Below, piece by piece: positions 48,348 through 58,968 of a stretch of DNA of 64,000 nucleotides. Origin of the DNA: Parvibaculum indicum (GTDB taxonomy: Bacteria; Pseudomonadota; Alphaproteobacteria; Parvibaculales; Parvibaculaceae). The notes below the pieces were generated by a model. It was not told the DNA's origin. It made no database searches and was given only the letters and a program-made list of their open reading frames with translations. Location of the stretch: contig NZ_JAASQO010000005.1 in NCBI RefSeq assembly GCF_011762095.1, positions 62,001 to 126,000 on the forward strand, in the 5' to 3' direction. Position numbers and translations under genes: made by a program. Position 1 is the first letter of the stretch; the number at the start of each line of letters is the position of its first letter.

Positions 48348-50096
<1,749 letters not shown>

Positions 50097-51548: not shown

Positions 51549-52073
51549 TCAGCCCGCGGGAACGGCGTATTTCCCGAGTTCGGCGATGACCTGCTCATAG
51601 ACGCTTCGCTTGAACGGTACGATCAGCTCGACAAGTTCGTCGATCGGCACCCATGCCCATTCGCTGAATTCCTGATGATCGTCGGCGGCAATGTCGATAT
51701 CGCCATCCTGGCCGGTGAAGCGCATGGCAAACCATTTTTGGGCCTGCCCGCGAAACTTGCCCTTGAGGGCGACGCCGATCAGATGATCGGGCAGGTCGTA
51801 ATGCAGCCAGCCCTCGGTTTCGCCCAGAATGTCCGCCTTGTCGGTGCCGGTTTCTTCCCTCAGTTCGCGCAACGCGGCGGCAGTCGCCTCCTCGCCCTTG
51901 TCGATCCCGCCTAGCGGCATCTGCCAGGTCAGGGGCGAGCCGGTATCTACTTCCTGAATGCGATTGCCGACCCAGACGAGCCCTTCGGCATTGATCAGCA
52001 TGATGCCGACACAGGGGCGGTAGGGCAGGTCTTCGGCTTTCAGGTCGCGCGGCGTATCGGCATGTCGGGGCAT
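51549..52073 (-). CDS. rppH: RNA pyrophosphohydrolase RppH
   Basis: Nudix hydrolase (174 aa) that removes pyrophosphate from the 5' end of mRNA and so starts decay. The protein opens with LPYRPCVGIMLINAEGLVWVG, and the Nudix box GGIDKGEEATAAALRELREE plus TGT is complete. QMPLGGID, LIGVALKGKFRGQAQKWFAM and AWVPIDELVELIVPFKRSVY are characteristic of RppH rather than other Nudix proteins. The ATG at 52073 matches homologues; a start at 52196 would overlap the upstream gene with arginine-rich sequence. It is last in the minus-strand block. Confidence 0.93.
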   Translation of the reverse strand: MPRHADTPRDLKAEDLPYRPCVGIMLINAEGLVWVGNRIQEVDTGSPLTWQMPLGGIDKGEEATAAALRELREETGTDKADILGETEGWLHYDLPDHLIGVALKGKFRGQAQKWFAMRFTGQDGDIDIAADDHQEFSEWAWVPIDELVELIVPFKRSVYEQVIAELGKYAVPAG

Positions 52074-52123
52074 GGGCGTTTTCCGTTCCGGGTGGTCGGT
52101 CCGTGGGGCGGTCTGGCCGGTTG

Positions 52124-53485
52124 TCAGCGGCTTTCGCGTATGGCGGCGGTGGCGGGCACCAGGGTAAGGCCTCTGGCCCCGAGGCCGGCGGCCCATTCGT
52201 TGATTTCGTCGACGGTTGCCGGGAAACCCGAGGCGACGCCGAGCGCGGTCCCTGATTGTTTCGCGGCGACTTCCAGCGCATCGAGCGAATTGGATATCAC
52301 CTCCGCGCTTTGCTGCGGATCGACGATGCGGTCGGCGCGCGCAAAAGGCAGGCCTTCCTCTTCGGCAATGGAGGGGGCGAGGCTGCGGGCGGAGGCGCCA
52401 TTGTCGATATACATCAGGCCGCGCTTGTCGAGCGCCTCGAGCACGGGCGCCAGCGCCGTGGCGGAGGTGGAAAAGCGCGCCCCTTGATAGTTCATCACCC
52501 CCGCATAGCCGGCAAAGCGGCTCATCAGCCAGTTCAGGCGAGCCTGGTTCTCCTTCTCGGGAAGCGAGGTCAGGAGCGTGTAGGGGCCGGGATCGCTTTG
52601 CGGGTAGCCATAGGGCTCCATCGGCAGTTCCAGCAGGACTTCATGTCCGGCTGTGCGGGCCTTGTCGATCCAGTTCTGGAGGCCGGGGCCATAGGGCGCG
52701 AAGGAGAGGGTTACTTCCGGCGGCAAGGTCTCGATCGCATGGGTCGTTGCGCTTTCGGAAATCCCCATGCCGCTCACCACGATGGCGATACGGCCTTTCG
52801 CGGGAAGGCCCGACGGCACCGGCCGGGCGTAGATGCGCCAGGGCTTGCGGCCCTGGGGGCCGATTTGCGGCAACGGGCCCTGCGCGGTGCTTTCGACCAG
52901 GGCCCTGTCGGGTACGACAGGCAGCGGGCCGGAGAGCCTGCCATGCATGACGGGCGCGCTCTCCGGAGCGGAAATGCCGTCCACGCTCGCCGCGCCGGTG
53001 ATCTTTACCTGCGAGGCGATTTCGGCGGCGCTTTGCCGGTCGGCGGCGGCCATCAACTCCCGTTCGGCGGGGCTCAGATTGTCGTTGGCGGCGTCCGGGG
53101 CCGTCTTGTCCGCCGGTAACCGGTCTTCGGGGGCATGTGCGGTGTTTTTCGGGGGGGCGGCCTGTTGCGCGGGATCCGTCGAGATGCCGTCCACGCCCAT
53201 ATCGGGCGTTTCTTCGGTCTTGGCCGGACCGTTTTCCGTTTCGGGCGCGGGAAGCGAAAGGGTGGCCACGGGTTCGCCTGCCAGATCGTGATCGCCAAGC
53301 ACGAGCCAGGCGAGGGTGCCGCCATAGAGAAGGGCAACCAGAATCGTCACGATAGATAGCAGGCCGGGGCCGCGCCTGCGCGCGCCGGCCTCGTCGCCGG
53401 CCGATCCGGCTTCGACGGCTGTTTCCTTGGGAGCCTCGCTGGGGGCTTCCTCGATCTGATTCGGTCCCGGGCTTTCCGCCGTCAT
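52124..53485 (-). CDS. Divergent polysaccharide deacetylase family protein (DUF610)
   Basis: A 453-residue protein. The N-terminus is acidic and cytoplasmic, followed by one transmembrane helix (LLSIVTILVALLYGGTLAWL, about residues 43-62), a 150-residue Pro/Ala-rich extra-cytoplasmic spacer, and a C-terminal NodB-like domain (about 230-453): RIAIVVSGMGISESATTHAI, LSFAPYGPGLQNWIDKARTA, HEVLLELPMEPYGYPQSDPG and YIDNGASARSLAP. The family lies with envC and ctpA in many Proteobacteria, suggesting cell-wall work, but its substrate is not established. The ATG at 53485 is preferred to one 12 codons upstream. Confidence 0.87.
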   Translation of the reverse strand: MTAESPGPNQIEEAPSEAPKETAVEAGSAGDEAGARRRGPGLLSIVTILVALLYGGTLAWLVLGDHDLAGEPVATLSLPAPETENGPAKTEETPDMGVDGISTDPAQQAAPPKNTAHAPEDRLPADKTAPDAANDNLSPAERELMAAADRQSAAEIASQVKITGAASVDGISAPESAPVMHGRLSGPLPVVPDRALVESTAQGPLPQIGPQGRKPWRIYARPVPSGLPAKGRIAIVVSGMGISESATTHAIETLPPEVTLSFAPYGPGLQNWIDKARTAGHEVLLELPMEPYGYPQSDPGPYTLLTSLPEKENQARLNWLMSRFAGYAGVMNYQGARFSTSATALAPVLEALDKRGLMYIDNGASARSLAPSIAEEEGLPFARADRIVDPQQSAEVISNSLDALEVAAKQSGTALGVASGFPATVDEINEWAAGLGARGLTLVPATAAIRESR

Positions 53486-53600
53486 GTTCCCCACATCAAC
53501 AGAAAGGGCGGGACAAAGCATTCGGTGTCCGCCCTTTTCCGGTGCGTCCGGCAGCCCCGCCGGATCGCATCCCGGATGACCGTCCTAGCCGGCGGCCATC

Positions 53601-54929
53601 CTAGTTCGCCATGGCGCTCTGGCCGGGCACACGGATAAAGGCTTTGTCCTGCCGTTTACCGTTCAATAGATCAATAGCGTAAAGAAGTTGTGTGTCGTCG
53701 GCCTTGTCTTGCGGCACATAGGAGTCCGAACCGGATTCCTCGTCGCCGTCCGGATTTGCCAGATGTCCCGGCAGTTCCGCTTCGCCCCGGATCATGGGCA
53801 GTTTCTTCTTGTCTTCGGGCGGGTTCTGGCGGACCTGGATATCGGGCTCGATGCCCTTGGCCTGGATGGACCGGCCCGAGGGCGTGTAATAGCGCGCCGT
53901 CGTCAGCCGCAGCGCGCCGTCGGAACCGAGCGGGATGATGGTCTGGACCGAGCCTTTGCCGAAGGACCGCGTGCCGAGAATGGTCGCGCGGCGGTGATCC
54001 TGCAGTGCGCCCGCCACGATTTCCGAGGCGGAGGCCGAGCCGCCATTCACCAGCACGACAACCGGCTTGTTGCCCGTTTCGTCGCCGGAATGGGCGTTGT
54101 AGCGCTGCGTGTCCTGCGGATGGCGGCCGCGCGTGGACACGATCTCGCCGCCATTGATGAAGCTGTCGCCGACCGCGATCGCCTGATCGAGCAGGCCGCC
54201 GGGATTGTTGCGCAGATCGATGATGTAGCCCTTCAGCTTCGCCTTGCCGATCTGCTGGCGCAGATCGGTGACCGCTTCGTCCAGCAGGTCGGAGGTCTGT
54301 TCGTTGAAGGAGGTGATGCGGATATAGGCGATGTCGCCCTCGCGGCGGTACTTCACCGATTTGATGGTGATGATGTCGCGCGTGATGCTGACGTCGAAGG
54401 GTTCGTCCTTGCCTTTGCGCACCACGGTCAGTTTCACCGCGGTATTGACCGGCCCGCGCATCTTGTCTACCGCGTCGCTCAGCGTCATGCCCATAATGGC
54501 CTTGCCGTCGATATGGGTGATGTAGTCGTTGGGGCGAATGCCGGCGCGGCTGGCAGGGGTATCGTCGATCGGGGTAACGACCTTCACCACGCCGTTTTCC
54601 ATGGTGACTTCGATGCCGAGACCGCCGAATTCGCCGCGCGTCTGAACCTGCATGTCCCGGAAGTGTTTCGGGTTCATGTAGCTCGAATGCGGGTCCAGCG
54701 AGGTGAGCATGCCGTTGATGGCATTCTCCACCAGCTTGCTGTCGTCGACCGGCTCGACATAGTCGGCGCGGACGCGCTCGAACACGTCGGCAAAGAGATC
54801 GAGCTGGCGGAAGGTGTCGGAGCCTTCCGCATGGGCGGGTATGTCCAGCCCGCCTTGCTGCATGCCGAACACGGCCAGTACCGAGAGAAAGGTTCCGACG
54901 GCAAAGCCGGCGACAACAGACTTGTTCAT
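53601..54929 (-). CDS. ctpA: Carboxy-terminal processing protease CtpA (S41)
   Basis: Periplasmic serine protease (442 aa). It has an N-terminal signal segment (VVAGFAVGTFLSVLAVFGM), a PDZ domain (about residues 95-180, FGGLGIEVTMENGVVKVVTP) and the S41 core with the Ser/Lys dyad: serine in GGSASASEIVAGALQDH and lysine in TRSFGKGSVQTIIPLG. IDLRNNPGGLLDQA is also conserved. Such proteases trim periplasmic proteins, including murein hydrolases. It directly follows the envC-like gene with no gap, so the two are likely co-translated. Confidence 0.95.
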   Translation of the reverse strand: MNKSVVAGFAVGTFLSVLAVFGMQQGGLDIPAHAEGSDTFRQLDLFADVFERVRADYVEPVDDSKLVENAINGMLTSLDPHSSYMNPKHFRDMQVQTRGEFGGLGIEVTMENGVVKVVTPIDDTPASRAGIRPNDYITHIDGKAIMGMTLSDAVDKMRGPVNTAVKLTVVRKGKDEPFDVSITRDIITIKSVKYRREGDIAYIRITSFNEQTSDLLDEAVTDLRQQIGKAKLKGYIIDLRNNPGGLLDQAIAVGDSFINGGEIVSTRGRHPQDTQRYNAHSGDETGNKPVVVLVNGGSASASEIVAGALQDHRRATILGTRSFGKGSVQTIIPLGSDGALRLTTARYYTPSGRSIQAKGIEPDIQVRQNPPEDKKKLPMIRGEAELPGHLANPDGDEESGSDSYVPQDKADDTQLLYAIDLLNGKRQDKAFIRVPGQSAMAN

Positions 54930-56285
54930 TTATCCACGCGCCTTTTCGTCACTCATCAACAGCCAGGGACGCGGGTCGATCGGGTCCCCGTCCTTGCGAA
55001 ATTCGATATAGAGGGTAGGCCTTGCGCCGGTGGCTGTCTCCCGGCCTGTCTCATCTGGCGACGGGCCCATCATGCCGATGGGTTCGCCGGCGAGTATATC
55101 CTGACCCACCTTCCCATCGATGTGTTTCATGCCCGCCAGAAGCACATGGTACCCCTCTCCAACCGACAGGATCAAGAGCTGCCCATAGCGGCGGAACGGC
55201 CCTGCATAAACGATCCTCCCATCAAACGGGGCGATCAGCTGGGCATTCGGCCGCGCGGCGACCCGAATACCCCTGGAAACGCCCCCTTCGGGTATTCTGC
55301 CCCCGAAAGTCTGAACAATTTCTCCAGTGGCGGGCGGTCGAATGAGCCCTTTTGCCTGGGAAAAACGGCGTTTGGAAGGCGGCAGCACCGTTGAGGGGCG
55401 GGGCGGCGCGATGGCGGCCATCTGCGTGTTTTCGCTACGTGTCCCGTTGTGGTTCGAACCGGGGGCTCCCGTCGGGGCGGTTTCGGGCCGGCGGTCCGGC
55501 CGGGACGGGGGAAGTCTGGACGCCGCATCGGCTTCCAGACGGGCGATCAGGTCCTTCAGGCTCGTCGCCTTGCGGGATAGTGTCCGGGCACGTTCCGCCT
55601 CGGCCTGGGCGCGGGCGTCGAGCTTTTCCTGAGCCGTCGTTTTCCTGTCGAGCAGCGCCTGAAGTTTCGCCCGCTCGGCGGAAAGCTCGGTTTTGGCCGT
55701 GGAAAGCGTGTCGCGCTCGTCCAGGATGGATTTGCGCAAGGCGGCCAGATGCTCCAGACGGGCCTTGAGGTCGTCCGCCTCGCGCCGGAGTTCGGGCACA
55801 ATGGAGCCGAGCAGCGCCGCGGAGCGGATGGCGGCCAGCGCGTCATCGGGTCTTACCGCGAGGGCGGGGGGCGGATGGCGGTCCAGCGTGGTCAGTGCCG
55901 CCAGCAGGTCGCCCATATCGGCACGGCGGCGCTCGAGCTGGGCGGTAACGACGGCTTCCGCCGCCCTCAATCCTTTCAGCCGGTCTTCCGAGCCGGTGAC
56001 CGCCTGCTCGCGCTGCTGCACGCTGGCGGCCGTTTCGATCAGCTTTTCGCGCAGCGAGGAAATCTCGCTGGCCATGGCGCGGGATTCCGCTTCGAACTGC
56101 TTTTGCCGTTCGCGAGCCTTTTCGAGCTGGGTCTCGATCTTCTTCAGGTCGCCGGGTTCGGCCACATCGTCGGGCGCGGTATCGGCCAGCGCCGAAACCG
56201 GAACGACCAGGCACAGACCGAGAAGGGCGGTGCGCACCGCCTGCGAGGCGCGCCGGGATGCGGGTATGGGGCCGGCTTCAGACAC
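54930..56285 (-). CDS. envC: EnvC-like murein hydrolase activator (degenerate LytM)
   Basis: A 451-residue protein with a signal peptide (ALLGLCLVVPVSALA), long coiled-coil regions (about residues 45-120 and 165-255), a Pro-rich linker and a C-terminal M23/LytM domain (about 320-445). The zinc ligands of active LytM proteins are missing: the first-ligand region reads GVSRGIRVAA and the final HxH is LYIEFR. This is as in E. coli EnvC, which activates amidases rather than cutting murein itself. It overlaps gpmI by 8 bp and abuts ctpA. Confidence 0.9.
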   Translation of the reverse strand: MSEAGPIPASRRASQAVRTALLGLCLVVPVSALADTAPDDVAEPGDLKKIETQLEKARERQKQFEAESRAMASEISSLREKLIETAASVQQREQAVTGSEDRLKGLRAAEAVVTAQLERRRADMGDLLAALTTLDRHPPPALAVRPDDALAAIRSAALLGSIVPELRREADDLKARLEHLAALRKSILDERDTLSTAKTELSAERAKLQALLDRKTTAQEKLDARAQAEAERARTLSRKATSLKDLIARLEADAASRLPPSRPDRRPETAPTGAPGSNHNGTRSENTQMAAIAPPRPSTVLPPSKRRFSQAKGLIRPPATGEIVQTFGGRIPEGGVSRGIRVAARPNAQLIAPFDGRIVYAGPFRRYGQLLILSVGEGYHVLLAGMKHIDGKVGQDILAGEPIGMMGPSPDETGRETATGARPTLYIEFRKDGDPIDPRPWLLMSDEKARG

Positions 56286-57855
56286 CGATCCGGCCCGGCG
56301 CGGAGGCCGGGTCGCCCGCCTCCTCGTTTTCGGGGACGATCAGCGGGCGGCCGCGCATCGAAGCGGGGATATCGACATCGAGAAGGCTCAGCAGGGTGGG
56401 CGCCACATCGGCCAGCGTACCGGGTCGCAATGCGAGCCCGTTCGCGGGCGAGGCGAGCACGAAGGGCACACGCGCCTCAGTGGTGACGCGGCTTTGTTCG
56501 CCGGAGCCGGGGTCGGTCATCCGCTCGGCCTTGCCATAGGTGCCGCAGATGAGAAGCGTGCCGCCTCTCTTTTCGATCTGGGCGGCGATCTTGCCGAGCT
56601 GCCTGTCCACCGCTTCCACGGCTGCGACCGTCGCTTTCAGATTGCCGGTGCGGCCGAGAAGGGCGGCGTTGGGATAGTTCGCGACGATCAGGTCGTGGCT
56701 GGCCTTCTTGATGGCGCTCACGGTCTCGCTGGTGATCTCGGCAGCGGCAAGTTCGCCCCGGCGCAGAAGTTTCGCCGGCGGCGGCGTGTCCGCGACGAGC
56801 ACCGTTTCGCCGAACAGAAGCGTATCGCGGCCGGCGCGGGCGAAGGTCCAGAGATTGGCCTCCGCCGCCGTTTCGCACAGCGCGAGTTGCGTGAGGCCGG
56901 CGCCGGACAGCGTTTCGGCGAGTGTCGTCGGGGCCCGTTCGGGCTCATACATCCATTCGACCTCGGTATCGAGGGGACCGGACAGGCGAAGCAGCGAATA
57001 GACGCCGGAGAGGACCGGGGCGTGCGGCCGTGCCTCGGGGCCCGTCAGCGCCGAAATCAGCGAATGGGCGTGATCGGGGCGGAGATTGACCAGCAGCACG
57101 GCGTCGTCGGCCCGGATACCGCGATAATTCTGCGAGATGGCGGGTGGCACGTCGTCGTCGGCCAAGCCCTTGTTATAGGCATTGTCCAGATGAACGGAGA
57201 GATATTCCGCCCTCGGAGCATCCGTTTCGACCAGCGCCTTCAGGGCTGCTTCCACGCGGGCGGGGTCGCAACGCGCATCGAAGCCGTAGCGCCGTCCCAT
57301 CACGCTGCCGAGTTCGGCGCTTTCCGCGCCTGCGAGGTCTTCGTTGAGTTCGGCCAGATGGACGATGCCTTCCTGGGGCGGCGTATCCTGTCCGTCCATC
57401 ACGGCATGAACCCAGACCTGCATGCCCTCATGGCTGAGCAGGGCGGCAAGAACGGCGAGATGGTTCTGATGGCCCGCGATCCCGGCGGGCGAGGCCATGC
57501 CGATGAGATGCACCGCGCCGCCCAGCGGGCGGGCCCTGGCGATGAGCTGGCGGATGACGGGATGATTGGTGATGGCGTCTTCGCCGCTCGCTTCGAGCGC
57601 CCGGTTGACCTTCAGCAACGGGTGTTCGACGGGGGTGCCCGCGCCAAGCGTCTGATAGGCGGCCTGCGCATTGCCGGGCTGGCCGGGGGCAAGGCCCACG
57701 GCCTCGCCGGATGCGACGAGCGAGGTCTCCAGCCCCTTGCCGGCAAGCCGATCGAAGATCGGCGTACGCGCCAAGGCGATGGCGTTGGCTTCGCGTTCCG
57801 CGCGAAGTCCCCAGCCGTCCAGTGTTACGAGGACAAGGGGTCGGACGCCGTTCAT
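56278..57855 (-). CDS. gpmI: iPGM-like alkaline-phosphatase-superfamily protein, probable pseudoenzyme
   Basis: A 525-residue homologue of cofactor-independent phosphoglycerate mutase along its whole length (LVTLDGWGLRAEREANAIAL, ASGEAVGL.PGQ.GN, DGQDTPPQ, NYPNAALLGRTGN, LADVAPTLLSLL). The active site is not conserved. D13 is kept, but the phosphorylated serine is Ala (A63; GNAQAAY instead of GNSEVGH), the Asp/His of NPDMVGHTGN are A398/R402, and the Asp-His of DHGNAEQ are T439/Y440. The His of HTTNPVPF is Val, the catalytic Arg of DGRDTPP is Gln156 and the Lys of EKYAHVTFF is Ala. Normal glycolytic activity is therefore unlikely. It sits between rlmH and envC. Confidence 0.85.
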   Translation of the reverse strand: MNGVRPLVLVTLDGWGLRAEREANAIALARTPIFDRLAGKGLETSLVASGEAVGLAPGQPGNAQAAYQTLGAGTPVEHPLLKVNRALEASGEDAITNHPVIRQLIARARPLGGAVHLIGMASPAGIAGHQNHLAVLAALLSHEGMQVWVHAVMDGQDTPPQEGIVHLAELNEDLAGAESAELGSVMGRRYGFDARCDPARVEAALKALVETDAPRAEYLSVHLDNAYNKGLADDDVPPAISQNYRGIRADDAVLLVNLRPDHAHSLISALTGPEARPHAPVLSGVYSLLRLSGPLDTEVEWMYEPERAPTTLAETLSGAGLTQLALCETAAEANLWTFARAGRDTLLFGETVLVADTPPPAKLLRRGELAAAEITSETVSAIKKASHDLIVANYPNAALLGRTGNLKATVAAVEAVDRQLGKIAAQIEKRGGTLLICGTYGKAERMTDPGSGEQSRVTTEARVPFVLASPANGLALRPGTLADVAPTLLSLLDVDIPASMRGRPLIVPENEEAGDPASAPGRIGV

Positions 57856-57978
57856 GATCTTTCGGAGTGTGGTGAAAATGTTGCCGCATTCCCGGGCGAA
57901 TCGTCAGGCCCGCGAGACGTTCAAAGGTAATGGAACACCGGTTGCGTGTCCATGATGCGAGACGGGCTCATCCGTTCC

Positions 57979-58461
57979 TCACACGCGGTGATAGGGATGG
58001 CCTGCGAGAATGGTGATCGCCCGATAGAGCTGTTCAGTAAGCATGACGCGCGCCAGCATATGAGGCCACGTCATTTTCCCGAAACTCACCAGATGGTCGG
58101 CGCGCTCCCGGATTTCCGGCGCAAGGCCGTTGGCGCCGCCGATCAGGAACACAGCCTCAGGCGTGCCTTCGTCGCGCCAGGCGCCGAGACGCGCCGCGAA
58201 GGCTTCGCTGCCCTCGTTCCTGCCGCGCTCGTCCAGCGCAATCACACGGGCGCCGGGAGGGACATGGGCAAGCAGCAGTTCCGCTTCGCGGGCCATCAGC
58301 GCCGCGCCTTCGAGGCGTTTTTTCTCCTCGACTTCGGTCAGCGCGGCGGACGAAAAACCGATGGCGCGTCCCGTAGCGGAAAGACGCGCCAGATAATCCT
58401 CGACGAGTTGTTGTTCGGGGCCGGCCCGCAAGCGGCCGACGGCGCAGATCCGCAGCCGCAT
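57979..58461 (-). CDS. rlmH: 23S rRNA (pseudouridine1915-N3)-methyltransferase RlmH
   Basis: SPOUT methyltransferase (160 aa) modifying pseudouridine 1915 of 23S rRNA in assembled 70S ribosomes. [60 protein letters not shown] and the C-terminal [19 protein letters not shown]-like end ([20 protein letters not shown]) are diagnostic. It follows rsfS, as in most bacteria. Confidence 0.96.
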
Positions 58462-58536: not shown

Positions 58537-58968
58537 TCAGTGATGCTGGGCGTCTGGCGGAATATCCGCGGCCCACATCTTCTCCAGTTTGTAAAACTCG
58601 CGCACTTCAGGCCGGAAGATATGAACGATGACGTCTCCGGCATCGATCAATACCCAGTCCGCCTGGTTGAGGCCTTCCACATCGGCCTTGCCGAAGCCCG
58701 CTTCCTTGAGCTTGCGGACAAGATGGTCGGCCACGGCGCCGACATGGCGCTGCGAACGCCCGCTGGCGACCACGAGATGGTCGGCCATGGGGGTCTTGCC
58801 TTGCAGGTCGATGGAAACGATGTCTTCGGCCTTGTCGTCGTCAAGGCTGGCAAGCACCGCCGCCAGCATGGCCGAACTCTGTTCGCTCTCGGCGGGGGCC
58901 GCGTCATGCGTTGCCGCCGTTGCGCTGGAAGCGGGAATGTCGCTCCCGTCGTCCGCCCTTTCGGGCAT
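58537..58968 (-). CDS. rsfS: Ribosome silencing factor RsfS
   Basis: RsfS/Iojap protein (143 aa), which binds L14 and blocks subunit joining under nutrient limitation. The core (about residues 33-135) has LDDDKAEDIVSIDLQGKTPM, ADHLVVASGRSQRHVGAVAD, NQADWVLIDAGDVIVHIFRP and EVREFYKLEKMW. The 30-residue Ala/Ser/Glu-rich N-terminal extension is of doubtful reality; an ATG at 58869 would give the usual length. It lies between nadD and rlmH. Confidence 0.94.
   Translation of the reverse strand: MPERADDGSDIPASSATAATHDAAPAESEQSSAMLAAVLASLDDDKAEDIVSIDLQGKTPMADHLVVASGRSQRHVGAVADHLVRKLKEAGFGKADVEGLNQADWVLIDAGDVIVHIFRPEVREFYKLEKMWAADIPPDAQHH

Follow-up and report, generated by a model that had tools for sequence, protein, structure and literature searches.

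A probable maintained pseudoenzyme of the phosphoglycerate mutase family next to envC in Parvibaculum indicum and its relatives

The window analyzed here, that is, the whole stretch of DNA under study, comprises 64 kb of the 4.0 Mb genome of Parvibaculum indicum (contig NZ_JAASQO010000005.1, positions 62,001 to 126,000). Between rlmH and envC, on the minus strand, it encodes a homologue of the cofactor-independent phosphoglycerate mutase (iPGM; GpmI, or GpmM in Escherichia coli) in which most of the catalytic residues are replaced; we denote this protein pseudo-iPGM. Catalytic residues are numbered as in the Geobacillus iPGM, and the catalytic, metal-binding and substrate-binding positions are those that we take to serve in that enzyme. 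Residues were compared across 32 rows from 31 Parvibaculaceae genomes (family rows, of which L022, L034 and L160 are partial), three rows of a second lineage, f106, and 32 rows of our own selection (26 from a scan of the class and 6 from another search) that are called active on the strength of their residues.

56278..57855, minus strand: pseudo-iPGM (GpmI homologue), 525 amino acids, identified from the open reading frame, Pfam, TIGR01307, alignments to solved iPGMs and an AlphaFold model
57667..57669, minus strand: codon of Ala63, in the place of the phospho-accepting Ser62 (serine in 32 of 32 active rows, 0 of 32 family rows and 0 of 3 f106 rows)
56650..56664, minus strand: A398 to R402, in the place of the metal ligands D403 and H407 (R402 is arginine in 28 of 32 family rows)
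56536..56541, minus strand: T439-Y440, in the place of the metal ligands D444 and H445, from the residue table

The frame runs through 525 codons with zero internal stops, and the protein matches both iPGM domains of Pfam, with full-length homology in both. TIGR01307 matches residues 6-506 with 320.4 bits, slightly below the cut-off of 330.65 set for the iPGM equivalog, and all 11 solved proteins that match by sequence are iPGMs. The AlphaFold model, built from 31 input sequences, has a mean predicted local distance difference test score of 90.2 and aligns with the Acinetobacter iPGM 5vpu at Z 50.5, with a root-mean-square deviation of 1.7 A over 502 residues, and with the Geobacillus iPGM 1o98 at Z 49.9; the predicted iPGM fold is complete and superposable on iPGM throughout. 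The open reading frame, Pfam, TIGR01307 and the alignments to solved structures all agree with the intact 525-codon frame, alignable with iPGM over its full length, that had been described in the initial annotation of this DNA. A 745-codon open frame on the plus strand (55693-57930), antisense to envC and pseudo-iPGM, is likely a by-product of high G+C content.

The active site itself is largely gone. Ser62 corresponds to A63, and five of the six ligands of the two-metal site (D12, D403, H407, D444, H445 and H462) are replaced: D403 by A398, H407 by R402, D444 by T439, H445 by Y440, and H462 by V457 or T458, a position ambiguous by one column, with histidine at neither. D13 is the sole survivor. 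Among the eight substrate residues, H123, R153, R191, R264 and K336 are replaced by A127, Q156, A194, H262 and A331, respectively, and three are retained (D157, R188 and R259 at the positions of D154, R185 and R261). The alignments to solved iPGMs thus bear out what the initial annotation had read from the sequence, namely, the alanine in place of the serine, the replaced metal ligands (with V457 uncertain by one column) and the Gln and Ala at the Arg153 and Lys336 equivalents. Its statement that only D13 remains holds among the metal ligands and fails for the three retained substrate positions. No displaced but intact serine or metal site was seen in the alignments to solved iPGMs or in the superposition of the predicted fold, and a displaced active site was therefore rejected.

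The loss is shared by the entire family sample, which spans Parvibaculum, Tepidicaulis and two further genera. S62, R153, R264, K336, D403 and D444 are absent from all 32 family rows, which retain 2 to 7 of 15 canonical residues (one partial row retains none); all 14 alignable canonical residues are present in each of the 32 active alphaproteobacterial rows and likewise in E. coli GpmM. Because none of the 32 rows, drawn from 31 genomes, has kept the site, sequencing error, which had already been discounted in the initial annotation, and chance were both rejected. The replacing residues vary from genus to genus, which suggests that catalysis has long been unneeded. A gpmI-type match was detected in 32 of the 40 Parvibaculaceae genomes, one of these (G011) being a 35-residue piece at a contig edge that was left out of the residue reading. 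Seven of the eight genomes without a match also show no rlmH, so that the stretch is probably unassembled; in the eighth (G042, genus g18), rlmH is followed by envC, a clean loss of the gene by deletion, not decay. Three assembled family copies (L006, L009 and L154) contain in-frame stops. One assembly (G007) carries two copies (L020 and L229), each in its own rlmH-envC cluster, and is probably a mixed bin.

A scan of 387 alphaproteobacterial genomes with TIGR01307 yielded 272 above the enzyme cut-off and 99 without a match; the genomes were sifted by score, so that a well-scoring pseudoenzyme could be missed. Eighteen low scorers were chosen by eye; 15 loci from 14 genomes, plus G230 and G302, were read residue by residue, with G064, G085, G175 and G312 left aside. 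The second lineage without the site, f106 (G144, G230 and G302), has its copy at the same locus, at 28-30% identity. This copy is more degraded, with even D13 replaced by Gln, and retains R153. The remaining low scorers read are contig fragments or copies with the residues kept, and among the low scorers read the site-less iPGM is limited to Parvibaculaceae and f106. On one contig of G118 (family f80), two iPGM matches (L167 and L179) lie side by side, a duplication or an artefact; the frames picked at both loci appear to have identical sequences. In the gene tree, a split supported at 100/100 sets the 32 active rows apart from every pseudo row, with f106 on a long branch, and a tree of CtpA, RppH and EnvC places f106 beside Parvibaculaceae with weak support (47/78). 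A single loss of the site before the split of the two lineages would be the simplest reading of these sequences; given the long branch and the weak signal of the neighboring genes, we set aside one origin as an established result.

The gene is under strong purifying selection at the protein level. The ratio of nonsynonymous to synonymous substitution rates (dN/dS) was 0.05-0.17 in 10 family pairs and 0.05-0.21 in two f106 pairs (the pseudo pairs come from Parvibaculum, g19, Tepidicaulis and f106, with g20 left out). For active gpmI, it was 0.03-0.19 in the 10 of 12 pairs with finite dS, the other two being saturated and some values depending on very high or very low dS. The neighboring envC and rlmH have a dN/dS range similar to that of pseudo-iPGM, and the near-identical pair L010-L011 shows zero amino-acid changes. 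The first third of the gene is the most constrained in 10 of the 12 pseudo pairs, and dS is lowest at the 3' end in 4 of 12, with no consistent drop there. The low dN/dS and this pattern of dS indicate that selection keeps the protein and not merely the frame. The proposal of the initial annotation that pseudo-iPGM is a maintained pseudoenzyme, with catalysis lost across the orthologues of a gene under purifying selection, is strongly supported at the sequence level by the family-wide loss of the site, the low dN/dS and a separate intact GpmA.

This GpmA is encoded in the same genome and contains RHG, ERDYG and HGNS, presumably its usual motifs; the sole other match to the metalloenzyme family is a sulfatase-like protein (named by eye). 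The initial annotation had made its proposal hinge on a second phosphoglycerate mutase in the genome, and GpmA is such an enzyme. Across genomes, gpmA scores above the cut-off in 37 of 40 in the family (the three misses are only 71-84% complete), in 3 of 3 in f106 and in 0 of 29 (11 + 18) with an active iPGM, most of which contain weaker histidine-phosphatase matches. The GpmAs of the family and f106 lack model positions 122-145, and G012 has an additional full-length copy. This short form has been noted in P. lavamentivorans (Foster et al. 2010, PMC2964296).

The neighborhood of pseudo-iPGM consists of the following genes.

58537..58968, minus strand: rsfS-like gene, in the upstream part of the conserved cluster (open reading frame list, locus comparison)
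57979..58461, minus strand: rlmH (SPOUT methyltransferase), the upstream neighbor (Pfam, locus comparison)
54930..56285, minus strand: envC (murein hydrolase activator with a LytM/M23 domain), listed frame with a GTG start (Pfam, match to E. coli EnvC)
53601..54929, minus strand: ctpA (S41 protease) (Pfam)
52124..53521, minus strand: SddA/YibQ homologue (PF04748) without the Zn ligands D31, D32, H78 and H123 (Pfam, alignments)
51549..52196, minus strand: rppH-like gene, at the end of the conserved cluster (open reading frame list, locus comparison)

The names rppH and rsfS are those we presume for these two genes. The cluster nadD, rsfS, rlmH, gpmI, envC, ctpA, sddA, rppH is old in Alphaproteobacteria; gpmM, envC and sddA occur on the same strand and in the same order, with ctpA between envC and sddA in this class. 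In 34 loci with an active gpmI, envC is next in 31 and rlmH was seen in 23, a count made on stretches of which several are too short to show rlmH and in a few of which it lies some kilobases off. The order in E. coli is gpmM-envC-yibQ. Since the same order is found with active gpmI and in E. coli, the position of pseudo-iPGM is inherited, and we rejected the use of gene order to argue for a new role. The initial annotation described the locus correctly, with rlmH on one side and, if the listed GTG is the start of envC, an 8-bp overlap on the other; its case for a new role, built on the proximity of envC, is weak in the form given. At loci without gpmI (L232, L237 and L244), rlmH runs into envC. 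By eye, the N-terminus of EnvC is signal-peptide-like and pseudo-iPGM has no such sequence, so that direct contact between the two proteins appears unlikely. The window EnvC aligns with its E. coli counterpart along its length, and one EnvC-matching structure entry is, as we take it, the FtsEX complex; the LytM domain of EnvC is non-catalytic. At the G042 locus (L276), EnvC is 41% identical to that of Parvibaculum, compared to 47-50% in other genera, and RlmH, CtpA and RppH show no such drop, their identity being equal or higher; no sddA was detected in the stretch retrieved for this locus. As it comes from a single genome, a further divergence of EnvC upon loss of pseudo-iPGM is left as a hint. 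Elsewhere in the window, the ATP synthase beta frame (48390-50096, plus strand; named by eye) begins roughly 90 codons ahead of the usual start, owing either to the choice of start or to a true extension, and Rfam gave no match in the 64 kb.

The SddA homologue also lacks its site: among the Zn ligands of the E. coli protein, D31, D32 and H78 are gone, Tyr occupies the H123 position, and only the D179 column is kept. The full ligand set is present in 0 of 44 alphaproteobacterial homologues at the locus, 25 active-gpmI loci included. Together with the non-catalytic nature of EnvC, gpmI-envC-sddA here looks like three non-catalytic products. We did not use the co-occurrence of gpmI and PF04748 across the class (odds ratio 2.6, p 1e-4, with pseudo copies coded as present and the stray matches in G064 and G175 as gpmI absent) as support for a tie to SddA because it is uncorrected for kinship, a second PF04748 match is found elsewhere in many genomes, and 55 of 101 genomes without gpmI keep one.

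The pattern of conservation was analyzed in 18 related family rows, 12 from Parvibaculum, with three near-duplicates dropped. Of 123 formerly invariant columns, 45 are kept, 53 have changed their majority residue and 25 are loosened. The loss is heaviest in the phosphatase domain: columns conserved in at least 90% of rows fall from 77 to 44 in residues 311-507, from 29 to 21 in residues 1-76 and from 55 to 44 in the transferase domain. In a 12-row alignment including f106, 28 of the 48 invariant columns, counted by eye, lie within residues 77-310. Furthermore, 26 changed positions are newly fixed, 14 at helix-to-strand ends, 4 at strand-to-helix ends and 8 elsewhere, and the 53 replaced positions divide into 10, 21 and 22 in the same classes (Fisher test on the first two classes, p 0.003). 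At these 26 positions, f106 has the new residue at 12 (46%) and the active residue at 4; at the 147 less conserved changed positions, the respective numbers are 29 (20%) and 24. Three of the newly conserved sites are the following.

57427..57435, minus strand: S141-H142-E143, facing away from the old cleft as judged by strand polarity; S141 and H142 also in f106
57106..57114, minus strand: R248-x-D250, both also in f106, from the conservation comparison
56566..56568, minus strand: R430, where helix 406-430 ends, shared with f106, from conservation and the predicted structure

Judging by strand polarity, which puts helix-to-strand ends on the side opposite the former cleft, most newly conserved residues within helix-strand units (14 of 18) face away from it and could form a putative new binding face. 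In the former cleft, besides R402, there is no new residue common across genera. New conservation away from the cleft favors a non-catalytic binding function.

The explanation that we favor, and consider somewhat better than an even bet, is that pseudo-iPGM derives from the original gpmI of the family, which lost its site after GpmA took over glycolysis and was kept for a non-catalytic task. The gene would sit at its ancestral place, glycolysis would have shifted to GpmA, the site would have been lost in or before the family ancestor, and the protein would have been retained to bind another protein in the cytoplasm. The binding side may be mainly the back of the transferase domain and its surroundings, opposite the former cleft (helix ends 138-143 and 173-177, loop 248-252 and helix 418-430). 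More tentatively, the task might be tied to the cell-separation neighbors EnvC and SddA. It might, for instance, feed information from the cytoplasm into the FtsEX-EnvC switch, a guess in keeping with the gene neighborhood and the compartments. A broader version appears doubtful: the proteobacterial gpmI-envC-sddA would be a module for the control of septal wall cleavage that acts via the GpmI protein rather than its mutase activity, with all three products dead and only binding in Parvibaculaceae, pseudo-GpmI acting in the cytoplasm, with FtsE as one possible target, and EnvC with pseudo-SddA in the periplasm. Several observations count against retention for binding at a new face. The helix-to-strand enrichment is weaker when compared to all positions (p 0.05), and the enrichment on the back face comes from the 18 related rows and from strand polarity instead of coordinates. 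The wider family pair L018-L051 has a dN/dS of 0.35, G042 and many other Alphaproteobacteria live without the gene, and SddA-type genes persist in over half of the class genomes that lack gpmI, so that there is no strict tie to SddA.

Among the alternatives, the one that survives best, although we regard it as unlikely, is that pseudo-iPGM is a ligand sensor: its transferase half would bind an acid such as 3-phosphoglycerate without turnover, and the protein would signal the state of lower glycolysis. D157 and R188 are present in 31 of 31 covered family rows and in 3 of 3 f106 rows, with R153 also kept in f106; however, these two residues may be structural, R264 and K336 are found in 0 family rows, R191 is Arg in 7 of 32 and R261 in 13 of 32, and the former cleft has gained nothing across genera besides R402. 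Accordingly, the sensing of glycolytic intermediates suggested in the initial annotation draws no support from the lost Arg and Lys and some from the D154 and R185 equivalents retained in every covered row. Much less probable is that the gene is kept for cis reasons, such as an envC promoter or translational coupling, with an idle protein: the 8-bp overlap with envC fits this possibility, but dN/dS is comparable to that of active gpmI and reaches its minimum in the first third in 10 of 12 pairs, dS shows no consistent drop at the 3' end although 4 of 12 pairs have their minimum there, the model predicts an intact fold throughout, and the loci that run directly from rlmH into envC manage without gpmI. 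Equally improbable, in our estimate, is a new catalytic activity that dispenses with the two-metal site. D13, H150, D154, D157, R188, D193 and E444 are still conserved in the family, but active iPGMs conserve them as well, f106 has Gln in place of D13, and, to our knowledge, the chemistry of the superfamily requires metals and a nucleophile. A decaying relic heading for loss, to which the in-frame stops in three assembled copies and the missing gene in G042 might point, is largely refuted by open frames under purifying selection in several genera and f106 and by the clean deletion in G042.

A glycolytic enzyme turned conserved pseudoenzyme looks rare, as judged from the scan of 387 genomes, and no report of pseudo-iPGM in Parvibaculum was found in the open-licence papers searched. 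This family offers a natural experiment in which the enzymatic role of GpmI is separated from whatever keeps gpmI beside envC and sddA. A link of gpmM to the control of cell separation was raised in a 2025 paper (PMC12440217), which calls for tests of it; the link of gpmM, envC and sddA left there for later work becomes testable in Parvibaculaceae.

Compared to the GpmI/GpmM enzymes of TIGR01307, pseudo-iPGM shares the full-length fold and domain order, with 29-38% identity to iPGMs outside the family, and the same locus adjoining envC; unlike the active enzymes, it lacks the nucleophile and keeps 1 of 6 Asp/His metal ligands and 3 of 8 substrate residues. P. lavamentivorans is included among the genomes with both iPGM and the cofactor-dependent enzyme (dPGM) by Foster et al. 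(PMC2964296), assigned on BLAST score, and the main text of that paper contains 0 occurrences of "catalytic residues" and "serine". In contrast to that count, the Parvibaculum genomes read here no longer encode the iPGM site and should not be counted as two-mutase genomes. The closest solved match of the window SddA homologue, Atu2773 of Agrobacterium (PDB 2qv5), offers a parallel, being an enzyme homologue without Zn ligands encoded beside envC, for which a retained regulatory function has been suggested (PMC12440217). It differs in belonging to another family, that of deacetylases, and in that 44 of 44 aligned alphaproteobacterial homologues lack ligands, whereas pseudo-iPGM is found in two lineages only. 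Finally, the E. coli gpmM-envC-yibQ(sddA) operon has the same three-gene order, but GpmM (PMC2964296) and SddA (PMC12440217) are active enzymes in E. coli, whereas their homologues in the window lack the catalytic residues.

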